Translations under genes and position numbers: made by a program
Shown: positions 35,645 to 51,304 of the stretch, in pieces
Layout: each line of letters starts with the position of its first letter
Numbering within the stretch: position 1 is the first letter of the stretch
Source: Diphasiastrum complanatum
Taxonomy: Eukaryota > Streptophyta > Lycopodiopsida > Lycopodiales > Lycopodiaceae
DNA: 64,000 nucleotides
Direction: 5' to 3'
Assembly (NCBI GenBank): GCA_029204225.1
Contig: CM055108.1
Span: forward strand, 8,740,601 to 8,804,600
The notes under the pieces: model-generated
Told to the model about the DNA's origin: nothing
Databases searched by the model: none
The model's input: the letters and a program-made list of their open reading frames with translations, nothing else

Positions 35645-36299
35645 TGTGAAAATTGTCAACATTTCCTAGCTAGTTTGAGGCCTAAATTGGCTAAAATTGT
35701 AAATAGTTTTGGTTCTGGAGTTTCACACGTGTGAACCAGGCCACAATGTTTTTATTTACTGTATTTTTTCAGTATGATGAAGTGTCAAACTTCATACCCT
35801 TCAAAATGAGACCATTTTGATGTATTTTGGTCATATAAGCCATTTTTAGCTATTTTTCCTATATAGGGAATATCTAGGGTCAAGTACCTTCTAGAGAGAG
35901 GAGAGAGAGTCATCTTCCTCATCCATAAATAGTAGGGAAGTCATGGAGAACAGGTTGGAGAAACCTTTTGTATGCTTCATTGAGATCAATAGATCATTGT
36001 CATTGTTTCTTCCTCCATTGAGAGCATTGTTGTGTGTATTGTCTTCAAGCTATTGTGTATGATCTTAGGTGCTTTCCAAAAGTGGTAGGCTGATGTATTA
36101 TGGACTGTATAATGCTATTTTGGGCCGCACTTGATGTTTATGGAAGTTTCCATTTGTGATAAATGCTTTTTGATCAAGTTCTTTGCATTCTAGGTAGCAT
36201 AGAATGTGTTGCCAATTCCTAGCTTATGTAGTTTGGAGTGCAAGCATTCAAGCCAATGATCTTGGAGTTTAGATCCACTTAGGATCTGTATTTTTCACA
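35645..36299 (+). repeat. H 5' LTR (655 bp)
   Basis: Starts TGTGAAAATTG, ends TTTTTCACA. CACACGTGTG lies at 35724-35733. CCTATATAGGG at about 35861 is the likely TATA box, followed by GAGAGAGGAGAGAGAG at about 35896. Confidence 0.95.
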
Positions 36300-37471
36300 T
36301 GGTATCAGAGCTGGTTGGCTTCTATTTACAGTAAGTATTCCATTTTTGGTGATATTTGGATGTTTGATCAAGTTCTAGCATGATTTTGCATTGCTTTGTT
36401 GATCAAATCTTACTAACCTTTGTTTTGTGAGTTGAACTTGTGGATCAAAAGCATATTTCAGGTCTATTGAAGATCAGAGGCTGAAAAGAAACTATTTTGG
36501 ATCAGATCATAACACCTAATCATTTGTTATTGTGAGGCTTGTGCATATTCAATACTAACAATGTTCTTTTCAATCCTATTGTTGACAATCTCCATTCTTG
36601 GATGAACACTCTCCTTAAGTGGATGAAACTTCTCCTTAAGTGGATGACAAATGCTCTTTTGAGTGAGTTGTAATTCTCCTAAAGGCTGAGCAAAGCTCCC
36701 ATTTGGATGAAAGATCCCCTTTTTTGGGTGAACATATTGCAAGCTCCATTGTGAAGAGCATATTGTAAAGATTGTCATCAATTTTGGCATAAATTTTGGT
36801 GTACTTTGTTGAGCATGTAAGTAACTCTCCTTATGTAATTTGATTGGAGCATTTGCTGGAAGGTGTTAACCATTATGCAAGTGTGTTTTCAGGTTCTTAA
36901 CAGGTTGAGGAACATTCTCATGTGAAGTGATCTTAGATCTACATCTAAACACCAAGATTTGACAAGATAGTGAAGCTAGTCTTGTGATTCACTAAGTGTG
37001 CTCATTCATTCACCTCTAAATCTTGTATTTATCACTTGCTGGAGTTTATAAACTTTTAGAAGTGTGGTTTACATGTGTTTTTACAGGTTGAATCAATATC
37101 TTAGTGTGTTGATCACATGTTGATCAAGTTTGTTCATTACTAGGTAATCTTGGCATCCTAGTTTTGGGTATTTTCTAAGAATGCAAGTAACTCTTCACAC
37201 CATAACTTGATTTGGTCACTTGCTGGAAAGTTTGAGAGCTTAAGCAAGAGTGTGTTCAGGTTGGTTTGATTTTGTAATCCATTCTTAGTGTGTGCAAAGT
37301 GTTGCATGTGTTTCAATCTTCCTTTCTATGCTTGGAAACCATCTAGGTTCAAGATAGAAGTGTTTTAGGGTCCTAAATCTTCATAGATCTCTTTATCTAT
37401 CATTTGTTGAGAGAAAAGTGAGTGCTAAGTGCTTTAGGACAGAACCTAAAAGTTGAAGAAACATTAGAATC
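36300..37471 (+). other. H primer site and long leader with degenerate repeats
   Basis: The primer site TGGTATCAGAGCTG starts at 36300. The leader then runs almost 1.2 kb before the ATG. It includes a short duplication CTCCTTAAGTGGATGA at about 36611 and 36632. From about 36800 it holds three degenerate units of roughly 180-190 bases, best seen as GCAAGTAACTCTNC, then TTGCTGGA, then TTNCAGGTT (units near 36817, 37000 and 37186). No sense ORF of note; the antisense frame at 36527-36790 is a by-product of the repeats. Confidence 0.75.
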
Positions 37472-39664
37472 ATGGCTTCCAATGGTGGGATCATGCTAGA
37501 GTCTAGTGAAAGGTTGAGTTCATCAAACTACTCTACTTGGAAAGTGAGGATGGAGTCCTTACTTGAGTTGAATGAACTCATGGACATAGTTGCAGAAATT
37601 GAAGAGAGACCTCTCACACTTCAAGAGCAACAAAGGTTTGATAAGAAGGCCAAAAGGGCTCTTCATATCATTAAAATGAATGTTACAAATGAACTTCTCA
37701 AGGAAGTTGGAAAGTGTCAAAGTGCAAGTGAGGCATGGAATGCCTTAAAGAAGCTCTTTGAATCAAAGTCCACATCTAGGGTATTGACCCTAAGGAGACA
37801 AATATTTTCTAGTAGGCAAAGAGAGGGTGAAAGTGCTCATGCATTTATCTTGAGAGTTAAGTCCCTAAGTGATGATTTAGCATGCATTGATGAGAACATA
37901 AAAGATGGTGAAATAGTCCAAGTTATGTTGAATGGTTTGCTAAATGAACATGCTAACCTTGTGCAAAGTTTTGCCATTCAAAGAGTCTTGCCAAGTGTGG
38001 TTGACTTGCAAGAAATCTTATTGGCTGAAGAACATAGGTTGCAATCAAAGCTTGATGGTGCATCCTTGCAAGGTGGAGGTGAAGAGGCTTTCTTCACAAA
38101 AGGCAAATTCAAGGGCAAAGGTAAAGGCAAAGGGAAATGGTCCAAAGGTGGTAACTTTGATCATGATGATCACTCTTCCTCTTCCTCTTTTACTAAGAAC
38201 AATAAGTCAAAGTTCAAGTGCTTTTATTGTGGGATAAAAGGTCATTTTGCAAATGAATGTTATAAGAAGAAAAGAGAGCAAGGAGAGAGGCAAGGAAATC
38301 TTACAATAGATGAGGAAGAACATAACACATGTGAATCACTTGTTATGACTTCAAGTTTGTTAGCCAACATAGATGATAATGATCCTTGGTGGATTGATAG
38401 TGGAGCCTCATCTCACATGACAAGACATAAGGAATACTTTACATCCTTATTGTCTTATGAGGGAGAAGGTAACATCATCTACACTGCAAATGATGGTCAA
38501 TGTGACATCAAAGGCATGGGCACTATTCCTATTTCCCTTTCAACAAATAGGAAAGCAAATCTTGAAAATGTCTTGTACATTCCTTCAATCACTAAGAATT
38601 TGCTTAGTGTAAGTCAAATGATTGACAAAGGACTTGATGTGGAGTTCATTGGAGATGCATGTTTGATAAGTAAATGTGGATCCTTGATTGCTCAAGGTAG
38701 GAGGCATGGTAAACTTTTCAAGCTTGATGCATGTGTGATCTCTAATCATGAAGGATGTATGGCTAGGGAGCAATTGACAAACCAAGAAGTTTGGCACAAG
38801 AGGTTGGGCCATCCCAACTTCAAATCTTTGGAGGTAATGGCAAAGAAAGAGCTTGTTCTTGGTCTCCCTAAAAGTCTTGTTGCAAACAATAGTGTTTGTG
38901 AACATTGTGCCTTGTCCAAATCTCATAGACTTGCTTATTCTAGATCTACTTCTAGATCTAAAGAAGCTTTTCAACTTGTGCATTCTGATATTCAGTCTTC
39001 TAGTACAACTAGCAATGGTGGGGCAAAGATGTATGCAACTTTCATTGATGACTTTAGTAGGTATACTTGGATCTATCTTCTTAAAAGTAAGGATGAAGTG
39101 TTTGCTGCATTTGTCAAGTTCAAGAATGAAATGGAAAACCAATTCAATACAAAGATCAAATGCTTAAGATCTGATAATGGAGGGGAATACACCTCAAATA
39201 GGTTCAAAGACTTTTGTATAGCACATGGGATTAAGAGGGAGATGTCTAGTCCTAGGACTCCACAACAGAATGGAGTGGCCGAGAGGAAGAATAGAACCCT
39301 TTGTGAATGTGCCAAGGCAATGAGACTACATGCTAATCTTGCTAAGTCTTTTTGGGGGGAAGCTTTAGCATGTGCTAACTATCTATGTAATAGATGGACA
39401 AGTGCTTCCTTGGATGGTAAAACTCCTCATGAGGTTCTTTATGGTAGAAGGCCGAGTGTCAAGCATTGTAGGATCTTTGGATGTACATGTTTTGTCAATA
39501 TCACACTTGATGATAGAACTAAAGAAGATCCTTCATCAAAGAAGGGTGTGTTTGTTGGCTCCAAACCATTGGGAAAGGACCTATATTTAATGCATAGATC
39601 TAATCTTGGAATGTGCTCAAAGACTATGTTGAAACTAGCATCCAATGTTGAAGAGGGAGTGTGA
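37472..39664 (+). CDS. H Gag-protease-integrase polyprotein, RT deleted in frame
   Basis: 730 codons without a stop. Gag: N-Y-S-T-W-K-V-R-M-E-S near residue 20 and R-V-L-T-L-R-R-Q-I-F mid-way. Zinc knuckle CFYCGIKGHFANEC at about 250-263. Protease WWIDSGASSHMT at about 306-317. Pre-integrase W-H-K-R-L-G-H-P at about 441. Integrase with H-S-D-I, R-S-D-N-G-G-E-Y (about 567) and V-A-E-R-K-N (about 602), so all D-D-E residues are visible. At about residue 696 the frame passes from K-K-G-V-F-V-G directly to the last 33 or so residues of an RNase H tail (G-K-D-L-Y ... M-L-K-L-A-S-N-V-E-E-G-V). About 2 kb encoding RT and most of RNase H is missing, yet the frame is kept. The ATG was chosen because it matches the Gag start M-A-S/T-x-G-I-M-L-E of B2. 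Confidence 0.95.
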   Translation: MASNGGIMLESSERLSSSNYSTWKVRMESLLELNELMDIVAEIEERPLTLQEQQRFDKKAKRALHIIKMNVTNELLKEVGKCQSASEAWNALKKLFESKSTSRVLTLRRQIFSSRQREGESAHAFILRVKSLSDDLACIDENIKDGEIVQVMLNGLLNEHANLVQSFAIQRVLPSVVDLQEILLAEEHRLQSKLDGASLQGGGEEAFFTKGKFKGKGKGKGKWSKGGNFDHDDHSSSSSFTKNNKSKFKCFYCGIKGHFANECYKKKREQGERQGNLTIDEEEHNTCESLVMTSSLLANIDDNDPWWIDSGASSHMTRHKEYFTSLLSYEGEGNIIYTANDGQCDIKGMGTIPISLSTNRKANLENVLYIPSITKNLLSVSQMIDKGLDVEFIGDACLISKCGSLIAQGRRHGKLFKLDACVISNHEGCMAREQLTNQEVWHKRLGHPNFKSLEVMAKKELVLGLPKSLVANNSVCEHCALSKSHRLAYSRSTSRSKEAFQLVHSDIQSSSTTSNGGAKMYATFIDDFSRYTWIYLLKSKDEVFAAFVKFKNEMENQFNTKIKCLRSDNGGEYTSNRFKDFCIAHGIKREMSSPRTPQQNGVAERKNRTLCECAKAMRLHANLAKSFWGEALACANYLCNRWTSASLDGKTPHEVLYGRRPSVKHCRIFGCTCFVNITLDDRTKEDPSSKKGVFVGSKPLGKDLYLMHRSNLGMCSKTMLKLASNVEEGV

Positions 39665-40314
39665 AAATTGTCAACATTTCCTAGCTAGTTTGAGGCCTAA
39701 ATTGGCTAAAATTGTAAATAGTTTTGGTTCTGGAGTTTCACACGTGTGAACCAGGCCACAATGTTTTTATTTACTGTATTTTTTCAGTATGATGAAGTGT
39801 CAAACTTCATACCCTTCAAAATGAGACCATTTTGATGTATTTTGGTCATATAAGCCATTTTTAGCTATTTTTCCTATATAGGGAATATCTAGGGTCAAGT
39901 ACCTTCTAGAGAGAGGAGAGAGAGTCATCTTCCTCATCCATAAATAGTAGGGAAGTCGTGGAGAACAGGTTGGAGAAACCTTTTGTATGCTTCATTGAGA
40001 TCAATAGATCATTGTCATTGTTTCTTCCTCCATTGAGAGCATTGTTGTGTGTATTGTCTTCAAGCTATTGTGTATGATCTTAGGTGCTTTCCAAAAGTGG
40101 TAGGCTGATGTATTATGGACTGTATAATGCTATTTTGGGCCGCACTTGATGTTTATGGAAGTTTCCATTTGTGATAAATGCTTTTTGATCAAGTTCTTTG
40201 CATTCTAGGTAGCATAGAATGTGTTGCCAATTCCTAGCTTATGTAGTTTGGAGTGCAAGCATTCAAGCCAATGATCTTGGAGTTTAGATCCACTTAGGAT
40301 CTGTATTTTTCACA
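39650..40314 (+). repeat. H polypurine tract and 3' LTR (655 bp)
   Basis: GAAGAGGGAG at 39650-39659 primes the plus strand. The LTR at 39660-40314 is almost identical to the 5' copy. The pol stop lies inside the first LTR bases. CACACGTGTG is at 39739-39748. Confidence 0.95.
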
Positions 40315-47753: not shown

Positions 47754-47964
47754 TATTGCTAGCATTGAGGAGGAGCATAAAAAGGAGGAAGATCTTGAGG
47801 ATCAGCCTCAAAGCATGAGAGTATCAAGTGTGCATCTTGCAAGGATGGAGAGCATTGGAGAGTCTACTATTTGAATACTTTTTGGATAGTATTCGTAGAC
47901 ATAAAATGGTTTTTTTCTTATATTTAAGATTCATGGTGTTTACTACTTTGTATGACAAGACAAT

Positions 47965-48328
47965 TGTTAGAAAGTGTCAAGGCTATAGCCCTTGCACAAC
48001 ACTCTTGGAACACAAATGGATGGGTAGCTCGGTGGTAGAGCACCCCACTGGAATGGGGGAGGTCCTAGGTGCAAACCACACACACCAAGTATAAAAACCC
48101 TTTACATGGTATCGGTTGTGGGTGTGGTCTAGGCGGGCGATAGCTAAAAAAGAGCTATGCCTTGAGGGGGAGTGTTAGAAAGTGTCAAGGCTATAGTCCT
48201 TGCACAACACTCTTGGAACATAAATGGACGGGTAGCTCAGTGGTAGAGCACCCCACCGGAATGGGGGAGGACCTAGGTTCAATCCCTAGCTCGCCGACCA
48301 CACACACCAATTGTAAAATTTTTTCACA
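47965..48328 (+). mobile_element. TRIM element with tRNA-like LTRs (364 bp)
   Basis: A miniature LTR retrotransposon. LTR-a is 47965-48106 (142 bp) and LTR-b 48173-48328 (156 bp), both TGTTAGAAAGTGTC...CA. ACAAT occurs on both sides (47960-47964 and 48329-48333). The internal part is only 66 bases: TGGTATCGG (seven bases of the Met primer site plus mismatches), a stem-loop (48136-48161: GGC, one-base bulge, ATAGCT, seven-base loop, AGCTAT, GCC) and the polypurine tract TTGAGGGGGAG (48162-48172). No coding capacity, so any movement would need proteins from other copia elements. LTR-a lacks 14 bases of LTR-b around the B box. Confidence 0.88.
48226..48300 (+). ncRNA. tRNA-like sequence inside the TRIM LTR
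   Basis: Canonical cloverleaf spacing: acceptor GGACGGG, TA, D arm GCTC-AGTGGTA-GAGC (4/4 pairs), A, anticodon arm CCCCA-CCGGAAT-GGGGG (4/5 pairs), variable AGGAC, T arm CTAGG-TTCAATC-CCTAG (5/5), acceptor CTCGCCG (5/7 pairs counting one G-U), A, then CCA. A box TAGCTCAGTGG (48233-48243) and B box GGTTCAATCCC (48276-48286) fit polymerase III promoters. Six T at 48319-48324 could terminate polymerase III. Position 33 is C instead of T, and the acceptor has two mismatches, so a working tRNA is unlikely. The formal anticodon would be GGA. A related, damaged copy lies in LTR-a (48020-48085). Confidence 0.75.
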
Positions 48329-48333
48329 ACAAT

Positions 48334-49002: not shown

Positions 49003-50715
49003 TACCTAAGATTTACAAGCAAATCTAATCAAAAAGTTTGCAAATTTGATCAGATTTCAAGCTAGGAATTGTCTAGATTTTACTTTCTAGCTAGTTTGCA
49101 GTTTTCTGGTGATTTAGAGCTTCAAACCACTTTGAATGATCCAGATCATGTACTGTACGGAATTTCAGGTGCTAGCATGTGTGAAATCCACCCATTTTCA
49201 GTTTGGTGGTTCTTTCTCACCTCAGATCCAAATTTCATGCAAATTAGCCCACTAGAAAGCTAGAAATGTGTAGAATTTGATGCAATTGGAATCATGACAG
49301 TTGGATAAGCCAATCAAAAGTTATAAGCTTTTAAAGAGTCATAGGTAGGGTGCCTAGACCTGTGAAAAATCGTGAGTACATGTCATTTATTGCTTGAATG
49401 ATCACAAAAATCATCCAGAAGTTGACCAATCTCATCTATATGTGATTTAGACAAAATTTATAGGTTCTAGGCAAATTGTTTCATACAAATAGATTGTATT
49501 TGAGTCAATTTGACATTTTTGAAGTATTTCACACATGTGAAATTCAAAGAACCATAACTTTTGCCATACTTCATCTTTTTTGATGATTCAAATCTTGTTT
49601 TAGAGAGATTGTCAAGCTAGTGAGATCTATCTCATAGTTTTTTGCTTTGTCTTACATAGGATTTGGTTTTTTAGCCCTTGATTGGTTCCTATAGTGAGAA
49701 GATAAGCAATTTTTTCATCCATCTTTTTTTATTTCCATCATTTTTTATGACTTCAATGGGTGTCTTTCTATTAGAAGCAAGTGAAAGATTGTCAACCTCC
49801 AATTACTCAATTTGGAAGGTTAGGATGGAATCTGTCTTAATACTACAAGATGTGATGGATATTGTACTTGGTATTGAAGAAGAACCACAAATTCCTCAAG
49901 AAATTCCAAAGTACAAAAAGAGAGCTAGGATGGCTCTGCATTATATTAAGATGAATGTCTCAAATGACATCTTAGGAGAAATTGGTGCTTGTACTAATGC
50001 CAAAGATGCTTGGGATACTCTCAAGTCCATGCTTGATAAAAAAAAGGATGTTGTGATTGCAAGAGACAAAAGGCAAGGTCATTATTCAAAATTGATGCTT
50101 GTGTTATTGCTAACCAAGTTGGATGTGTTGCAAGAGAGCAATTGTCCATTCAAGAGGTATGACACAAGAGGATGGGGCATCTCAACTTCAAGTCATTGGA
50201 GGTAATGGCAAAGAAAGCAAGTTGTGATTGGTCTTCCAAGTTCCTTAACTAGCATCAATCATGTTTGTGAACAATGTGCCTTGTCAAAGTCACATAGCTT
50301 ACCTTATAAGATATCTACATCTAGATCTACTATGCTTTTTCAAATTGTGCATTCGGATATTCATGGAGTTACTACAATTAGCAATAGTGGTGCTAAGATG
50401 TATGTAACCTTTATTGATGATTTTAGTATTTTTTGTTGGGTATATCTACTAAAGCGCAAAGATGAAGTGTATGACTTTTTCAAGCTCAAGATTGCAAGGG
50501 AGGTATAAATCTCCACCAAAATCAAGTGCTTGAGGAGTGACAATGGTGGTGAGTATATTTCTACAAGTTTAAAGCTTTTTGTGATAAGCATGGGATCAAG
50601 AGGGAGTAGACAAGTCCAAGGACACCACAACAAAATGGAGTGGCCGAGAGGAAGAATATCTAAAGTTGGATCAAAGTAGTATGGTTAAGACTATGCAATC
50701 TAGTGGAAGAGGGAG
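49003..50715 (+). mobile_element. Chimeric copia K/B internal region
   Basis: A leader (49003-49746) and K-type gag N-terminus are joined at about 50036 to B-family pre-integrase and integrase, which then jumps at about 50660 to a copia C-terminal tail and a B-like 3' LTR. The 5' LTR (ending 48989) is unlike the 3' LTR (50716-51304), so the two ends belong to different families. Confidence 0.82.
49747..50508 (+). pseudogene. K/B fused gag and integrase remnants
   Basis: ATG at 49747: M-T-S-M-G-V-F-L-L-E-A-S-E-R-L, then N-Y-S-I-W-K-V-R-M-E-S and A-W-D-T-L-K-S-M, a copia Gag N-terminus close to J (I-L-Q-D-V-M-D-I-V). After L-D-K the frame reads K-K-D-V-V-I-A-R-D-K-R-Q-G, which is the B protease/pre-integrase border (compare R-K-D-V-L-I-G-K-G-K-R-Q-G), frameshifted to 50205. 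Integrase continues at 50224-50508: H-V-C-E-Q-C-A-L, M-Y-V-T-F-I-D-D-F-S-I-F-C-W, stopping before the D-N-G-G-E block (about 50535, another frame). Confidence 0.87.
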
Positions 50716-51304
50716 TGTGAGAAATTGTCAACTAGTTTGATCTAGTTTGATTAATTGGCAATTTAGGCCAATATGCAATGAAAGTGTGGGAAATGTAGAA
50801 AGTCAAGTTTGGGATATTCAAATTTGAATAGTTTGTTCATTGAATCTAGTCCATATTTTTAGTAGGGTTTTTGATCTAGAAGTTTCTATGGAAGGAAACC
50901 AAATTCAAAATAAGGCATAGATACATTCTCTCTCTACTCTCATTCATCCTTATACATGAGATCTCTTTGGGGCTCCATACTCATTGGTGCACTATTGTGT
51001 TGATATCTTGAATTTTTGTGTTGTGCACTATTTTGTTGATATCTTGAATTTTTGTGTGTAGAATGTAATTGTTTGATGTTTGTTGGATCCACACGTGTGA
51101 AATATAGTAGCTTGTTGATTTTGTACGGACAACAACAATACTCTATCATTCATATCTGATTATGTCAAGATCTATTAGTGTTTATGGCTTCTATGCATTG
51201 TTAGAGCTAGATTTCTACATTGTTAGTGGTGCTAGATGTGCTATCTTAAGTAATTAAAGATCTTAGAGATTGATTGGATCTTAATGATCTGGTTTTTCTT
51301 CACA
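50716..51304 (+). repeat. B-like 3' LTR (589 bp)
   Basis: Starts TGTGAGAAATTGTC after the purine tract GAAGAGGGAG and ends TTCTTCACA at 51304. It aligns with B2's 5' LTR in its second half (ATCCACACGTGTGAAAT, ACAACAACA, TCTATTAGTGTTTA and TTGGATCTTAA blocks). It contains a short duplication TTGATATCTTGAATTTTTGTGT at about 50999 and 51036. CACACGTGTG at 51090-51099. Confidence 0.85.

Follow-up and report, generated by a model that had tools for sequence, protein, structure and literature searches.

Does the tRNA-like block in a short LTR element of Diphasiastrum complanatum belong to a retrotransposon family that could use it as a polymerase III (Pol III) promoter, or is it a separate insertion at a single place? 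The question is raised by a gene-less LTR element of 364 bp at 47965-48328 of the window, which is the whole stretch of 64,000 nucleotides analysed (GCA_029204225.1, contig CM055108.1, positions 8,740,601 to 8,804,600). The element is flanked on both sides by ACAAT, and all of its parts are given on the + strand.

The element in the window

The preliminary description had reported an element of 364 bp with an ACAAT target duplication, LTRs of 142 and 156 bp and no coding region, and this was confirmed to the base. The left ACAAT occupies 47960-47964 and the same letters recur on the right at 48329-48333. The 5' LTR (LTR-a, 142 bp, 47965-48106), defined by alignment with LTR-b and the rest of a 58-LTR set, is missing 14 bp across the T arm of the tRNA-like block, and its B box is therefore gone. 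It is followed by TGGTATC (48107-48113), in the place where other copies have TGGTATCAAAGCC or TGGTATCAGAGCC, a PBS that we take to be of the initiator-Met type; the primer-like site described earlier is present, but in this copy merely as a remnant. The purine tract was found as claimed, with the sequence TTGAGGGGGAG at 48162-48172, adjoining the 3' LTR and equally placed in other copies. The 3' LTR (LTR-b, 156 bp, 48173-48328), delimited by the LTR alignment and by genome matches with LTR-b as the query, contains the tRNA-like block (48226-48297). Within it, TAGCTCAGTGG (48233-48243) and GGTTCAATCC (48276-48285) resemble the consensus A and B boxes, respectively, and a run of six T (48319-48324) stands ahead of the terminal CACA. 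These features of LTR-b, including the 18 of 21 stem pairs, all agree with what had been described.

With two LTRs, a PBS (in this copy only the remnant), a polypurine tract, a length below 1000 bp and no coding region, the element is, as judged from its sequence, a TRIM with a tRNA-like block and putative type-2 Pol III boxes in its LTRs. Its internal part measures 66 bp, whereas that of every other distinct site falls within 69-73 bp, and the divergence between its two LTRs (0.107) is the second highest among the 28 sites read, the other values being 0.007-0.062 and, in locus L039, 0.120. The window copy looks inactive, having no B box in its 5' LTR and a damaged PBS.

The family and its tRNA-like block

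The host genome (1,744,706,496 bases in 5176 contigs; 1.74 Gb), whose Copia elements and three rbcL-like fragments point to a land plant, was searched with four queries. The search with the 364-bp unit, proposed in the preliminary description, revealed a multi-copy family, with at least 43 matches when 40 of 628 candidates were scored. With the 153-bp LTR of copy L003 as query there were at least 67 matches (40 scored of 675), with the window LTR-b at least 75 (40 of 571) and with the internal part at least 41 (40 of 464), the hundreds of candidates being first-look matches and not confirmed copies. From the set found with the element, 41 loci were read and 13 were dropped, 12 with flanks common to another locus and one (L041) that was the same place as L020, leaving 28 distinct sites with 58 LTRs. 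Intact copies measure about 379 bp, with an internal part of up to 73 bp. Exact 5-bp TSDs were present at 15 of the 28 sites, with one mismatch at two and more at 11; the TSD of L036 says little, since this copy sits in a CT repeat. The genome matches and the exact TSDs show ACAAT and the paired LTRs to be more than a product of chance, a possibility that had earlier been considered.

Other arrangements were recorded among the copies. Many are present at least twice, with common flanks and 98.5-100% identity (L002/L003, L006/L007, L011/L012 and others), the range obtained in 11 pairwise comparisons of shared-flank loci, and several of these sit on one large contig, suggesting segmental duplication or haplotigs. 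Arrays of at least three whole or partial LTRs with common internal parts occur in L020, L033, L097, L098 and L118, and in L099 two family LTRs lie close together in opposite orientation. Unique changes number 64 in 5' LTRs and 71 in 3' LTRs. At the 26 two-LTR sites, alignment column 85 departs from the majority solely in 5' LTRs (7 to 0), an asymmetry that was put down to selection by the query because the LTR-a of the query has the same T.

At each of the 28 distinct sites, the LTRs carry the tRNA-like block at one and the same position. When 20 of the 41 loci were submitted to Rfam, 39 of 41 LTRs scored 35.2-61.4 bits, the misses being LTR-a in the window and the third of the LTRs in L020. 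In the aligned columns, allowing up to two changes, 56 of the 58 LTRs have the A box, 57 have the B box and 55 have both; L001_1, L020_3, L033_2 and L033_3 carry deletions of at least three bases within the block. As these loci had come from an LTR-bearing query, a second set was selected by the internal region only, comprising 29 of the 41 places matched by it (the remainder had mostly been found already via the element or the LTR). Exact TSDs flank four of these 29 loci, many of which are truncated or in arrays. Their 58 sides include 33 LTRs with both ends, in which the aligned columns show the A box in 33/33 and the B box in 27/33 (26/26 and 20/26 without seven duplicate loci); the B box is deleted in the 3' LTR of L106, the 5' LTR of L117 and both LTRs of L126 and L129. 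The other sides are truncated or non-TRIM, save the 5' LTR of L106, which has both ends and matching TSDs and lacks most of the block, evidently through a deletion, since the 3' LTR of that locus keeps the A box. A looser motif search in the flank-containing segments of the same loci detected both boxes on 32 of the 58 sides, and on 27 of the 30 that were full-length. As the boxes are kept in most of the aligned LTRs, those of the internally selected loci included, the block is a feature of the family and not a local SINE insertion. The preliminary description had held that copies lacking the block would point to such an insertion; the few exceptions met look like deletions.

The block in LTR-b was matched by the Rfam tRNA model (RF00005) at 48226-48297 with 45.9 bits (cut-off 29, E 1.3e-6), the sole match in the whole window at the Rfam cut-offs, and ARAGORN reported a single gene in the window, at 48226-48300, without resolving the tRNA type. 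Both programs support the cloverleaf proposed earlier, for which a check with tRNAscan-SE and Infernal had been suggested. Its arms pair in 5/7 (acceptor, read by eye), 4/4 (D), 4/5 (anticodon) and 5/5 (T) positions, and 19 of the 21 pairs are retained by the majority base of each column in the LTR alignment. Stem covariation gave no signal in these LTRs, as 25 of 51 substitutions preserved pairing and 25.6 were expected.

The source of the block was sought among tRNA genes genome-wide (84948 candidates, 63 scored hits). The 20 hits read comprised 19 tRNA genes and L094, an LTR of the TRIM family itself that scored 49.2 bits; the nearest were Thr(GGT) at 41/52, Cys(GCA) at 42/61 and Thr(TGT) at 37/53, a ranking that is not decisive. 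Capture from a mature, CCA-tailed tRNA had been suggested from the A-CCA that trails the block in the window. This origin found no support: the acceptor end is short in 54 of the 58 aligned LTRs, usually GCCCGACCA, where ACC is the acceptor strand and A the discriminator base, and since this ACC pairs with the 5' acceptor strand, the short form has no CCA tail. Of the other four LTRs, the end is longer by three bases in the window LTR-b and by two in L015_2, and it is deleted in L001_1 and L020_3. The longer form of the window was seen again at one further site read, the duplicate pair L095/L096; the form with two extra bases also occurs in one LTR of L097, and a still longer one in L098. The A-CCA tail was consequently rejected as a family trait and treated as a rare length variant. 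The longer ends look like small duplications at a CpG-rich spot, an ancestral long form being the less likely alternative.

Polymerase III, Copia and the competing readings

The two boxes lie at tRNA spacing within a nearly complete cloverleaf, which makes it likely, on sequence grounds, that the family uses Pol III. The preliminary description had proposed that a tRNA acts here as the 5S rRNA promoter does in the Cassandra TRIMs; of this proposal, the boxes hold for the LTRs of the family, and the mature CCA-tailed origin is not supported. The T6 run had been listed with the Pol III signals, and it is present, but a role as terminator is weakened because the Copia LTRs resident in the window also finish with such a T-run and CACA. 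In the family, 47 of the 58 LTRs have four T as the longest run near their end, three have five or six and eight have fewer. In L003, runs of four or more T on the sense strand are found solely at the two LTR ends, which is unremarkable, as 0.5 would be expected per whole element. A CAA triplet is found at -5 of the block in the LTRs with C at column 49 (50/58), and is absent in the window LTR-b; PMC11700998 describes upstream motifs of this sort in plant tRNA genes, and this evidence is weak because, in the lineages quoted there, 36-45% of tRNA genes have CAA within 10 bases upstream. The A-box columns show no extra conservation relative to the remaining LTR (17/688 changes, or 0.025, against 0.014-0.028 in LTR regions), and the B-box columns changed at 8/632 (0.013).

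The LTR ends, primer site and purine tract of the TRIM resemble those of Copia elements in the same window, and Copia machinery therefore probably moves the family. Pfam detected Copia-type domains in five of the eight window ORFs submitted. The string TTTCACATGGTATCARAGC occurs seven times in the window with up to three mismatches, four of them exact (0.10 expected), and the junction TTTCACATGGTATCAGAGC, whose TRIM counterpart is TTTTCACATGGTATCAAAGCC or -AGAGCC, has four exact occurrences. At 50706-50731, a Copia-like fragment has the purine tract GAAGAGGGAG followed by TGTGAGAAATTGTCAA, which agrees with the TRIM start TGTTAGAAAGTGTCAA at 14/16 positions. The 16-base TRIM start has ten other window matches with up to three mismatches (1.81 expected), some of which may not be LTR starts, their surroundings having been viewed for a few. 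The window Copia elements are thus like the TRIM in PBS, purine tract and both LTR ends, and unlike it in that their LTRs are longer and they code for gag or integrase. No specific Copia helper was identified, and the internal part had no Copia match among the loci collected; its 41 genome matches are all TRIM-like and 97-100% identical, some adjoining foreign sequence.

Among the resident elements, a very young Copia lies at 35645-40314, with LTRs of 655 bp that are 99.85% identical and ATTGC flanks. Its gag-integrase frame extends to the 3' LTR, no reverse transcriptase domain was found in it, and the element is seemingly nested inside an older Copia. Elsewhere in the genome, the TRIM ends of L013, L026 and L114 adjoin PBS-like sequence (TGATACCA or TGGTATCA, in either orientation) of a neighbouring Copia-like end.

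The explanation that we favour, with good though not full confidence, is that the window element is a decayed member of a plant TRIM family belonging to the Helenus (TRIMp3) kind, a family that would be transcribed by Pol III and mobilised by Copia. Seen directly are the short LTRs with the block, the PBS-like site, the purine tract, the numerous copies, the TSDs at around half the sites and the Copia-like termini. From these we infer that the A and B boxes of the 5' LTR recruit Pol III, which would start just upstream of the tRNA-like block, run past the weak terminal T4 of the 5' LTR and terminate on reaching the T-run in the 3' LTR. The resulting RNA, with repeated ends, would be reverse-transcribed from initiator tRNA-Met by Copia enzymes acting in trans and inserted by Copia integrase, the block serving as a portable promoter and not as a working tRNA. 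Against this mechanism, read-through of the T4 of the 5' LTR would be needed, and the block has been lost from the 5' LTR of L106, as has the B box from another six LTR sides.

The alternative that survives best, to which we give a minor but real share of belief, is an ordinary Pol II-driven TRIM with a captured tRNA or SINE head lying functionally idle in its LTR. The T-run plus CACA shared with Copia LTRs would suit it, as would the lack of any sign of constraint on the stems or the A box in the sampled copies. However, the majority bases keep 19 of the 21 pairs and 55 of the 58 LTRs keep both boxes; moreover, the sampled substitutions are probably mostly post-insertion and therefore tell little about the source copies.

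One extension of the Pol III reading, itself rather doubtful, would have the Copia LTR end (T4-CACA) taken over as a Pol III terminator that leaks: transcription would run through the first T4, and the RNA would end at the second. R would then be the tRNA-like half and U5 four bases, and the LTR/PBS junction shared with Copia would let circles recombine into Copia. That some copies have indeed spread by recombination of circular copies at this junction, and not by integrase alone, seems improbable. In its favour, the TRIM body of L133 is flanked by two TTTTCACA-TGGTATCA junctions, foreign sequence ending in TTTTCACA, TTTGACA and TTCTACA directly precedes the TRIM PBS in L134, L135 and L136, and three-LTR arrays exist; yet the junction is on both sides in L133 alone, and the exact TSDs imply that integrase insertion accounts for at least 15 of the 28 sites. 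L133-L136 each consist of the TRIM internal part and one LTR (shortened in L136), with a Copia-LTR-like foreign end exactly at the PBS, and the far side of L133 also runs on into TGGTATCA. As a hypothesis, these four loci would fit an origin in which a circle with one LTR recombined at the junction shared with Copia.

It is very improbable that the element spreads functional tRNA genes, with the block made into a usable tRNA. Rfam scores of up to 61.4 bits and an anticodon loop of seven bases are what such a tRNA might show, but the anticodon position reads GGA, presumably for a Ser codon, and the variable arm is short, yet the nearest tRNA gene read is a tRNA-Thr; in addition, 51 of the 58 LTRs have C at position 33 (column 85) and all 58 have an A-A mismatch in the acceptor stem. 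That a SINE or tRNA pseudogene entered the LTR pair independently, at the window locus alone, has practically no chance of being right; nothing was found in its favour, and it is refuted by the block in 28/28 distinct sites and on 33/33 counted sides of the internally selected loci.

Relation to known TRIMs

The Cassandra precedent invoked in the preliminary description was apt, and a tRNA version has since 2024 been in print as Helenus (PMC10886601). Cassandra, as presented in PMC10853983, is a TRIM whose LTR holds a 5S rRNA promoter and whose PBS is of the methionine type, and in these respects, a small-RNA-gene promoter in the LTR and the PBS type, it resembles the present family; it differs in having 5S rRNA where the family has tRNA. 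Rfam found no 5S rRNA match in the window or in the 20 loci searched. The multi-unit arrays of the family also recall the long tandem arrays of Cassandra mentioned in PMC7215508. Ajax is likewise a TRIM with a captured Pol III promoter, and unlike the family it has a partial 5S rRNA and is given in PMC10886601 from two nemertean worms.

Several consequences follow for this kind of element. A many-copy plant family is added to a kind for which the account in PMC10886601 reports a single plant species, and the termini of the family tie a Helenus-kind TRIM to Copia in the same genome. Such families may inflate tRNA gene predictions, as their LTRs can be miscounted as tRNA genes, L094 having surfaced in the genome-wide tRNA search. 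With its young copies, the family would also offer a convenient test of the claim that tRNA-TRIMs use Pol III. Literature searches on Helenus or TRIMp3 returned no report on it besides PMC10886601, none was named among the titles listed in wider searches, and the LTR-start strings of the family were not found in the literature searched.

Helenus was the name given by Kojima (2024) to TRIMs with tRNA-like LTRs, which were proposed as TRIMp3 together with Cassandra and Ajax, and that account states their Pol III transcription to be unvalidated (PMC10886601). The features described there, a tRNA-like sequence with A and B boxes inside the LTRs, a PBS, a purine tract and, in plants and fungi, a 5-bp TSD, are shared by our family, as are a link to Copia (described there in fungi) and disagreement over the tRNA type. 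With tRNA-derived LTR sequence throughout the family, both boxes and the 5-bp TSD, the family belongs to the Helenus (TRIMp3) kind, as judged by these described features. The sole plant listed for Helenus in PMC10886601 is Selaginella moellendorffii, with an LTR of 120 bp and an internal part of 85 bp, compared with 153 and 73 bp in the present family and its 1.74-Gb genome. The kind is therefore already known, and the family is a further member that is itself new to it.
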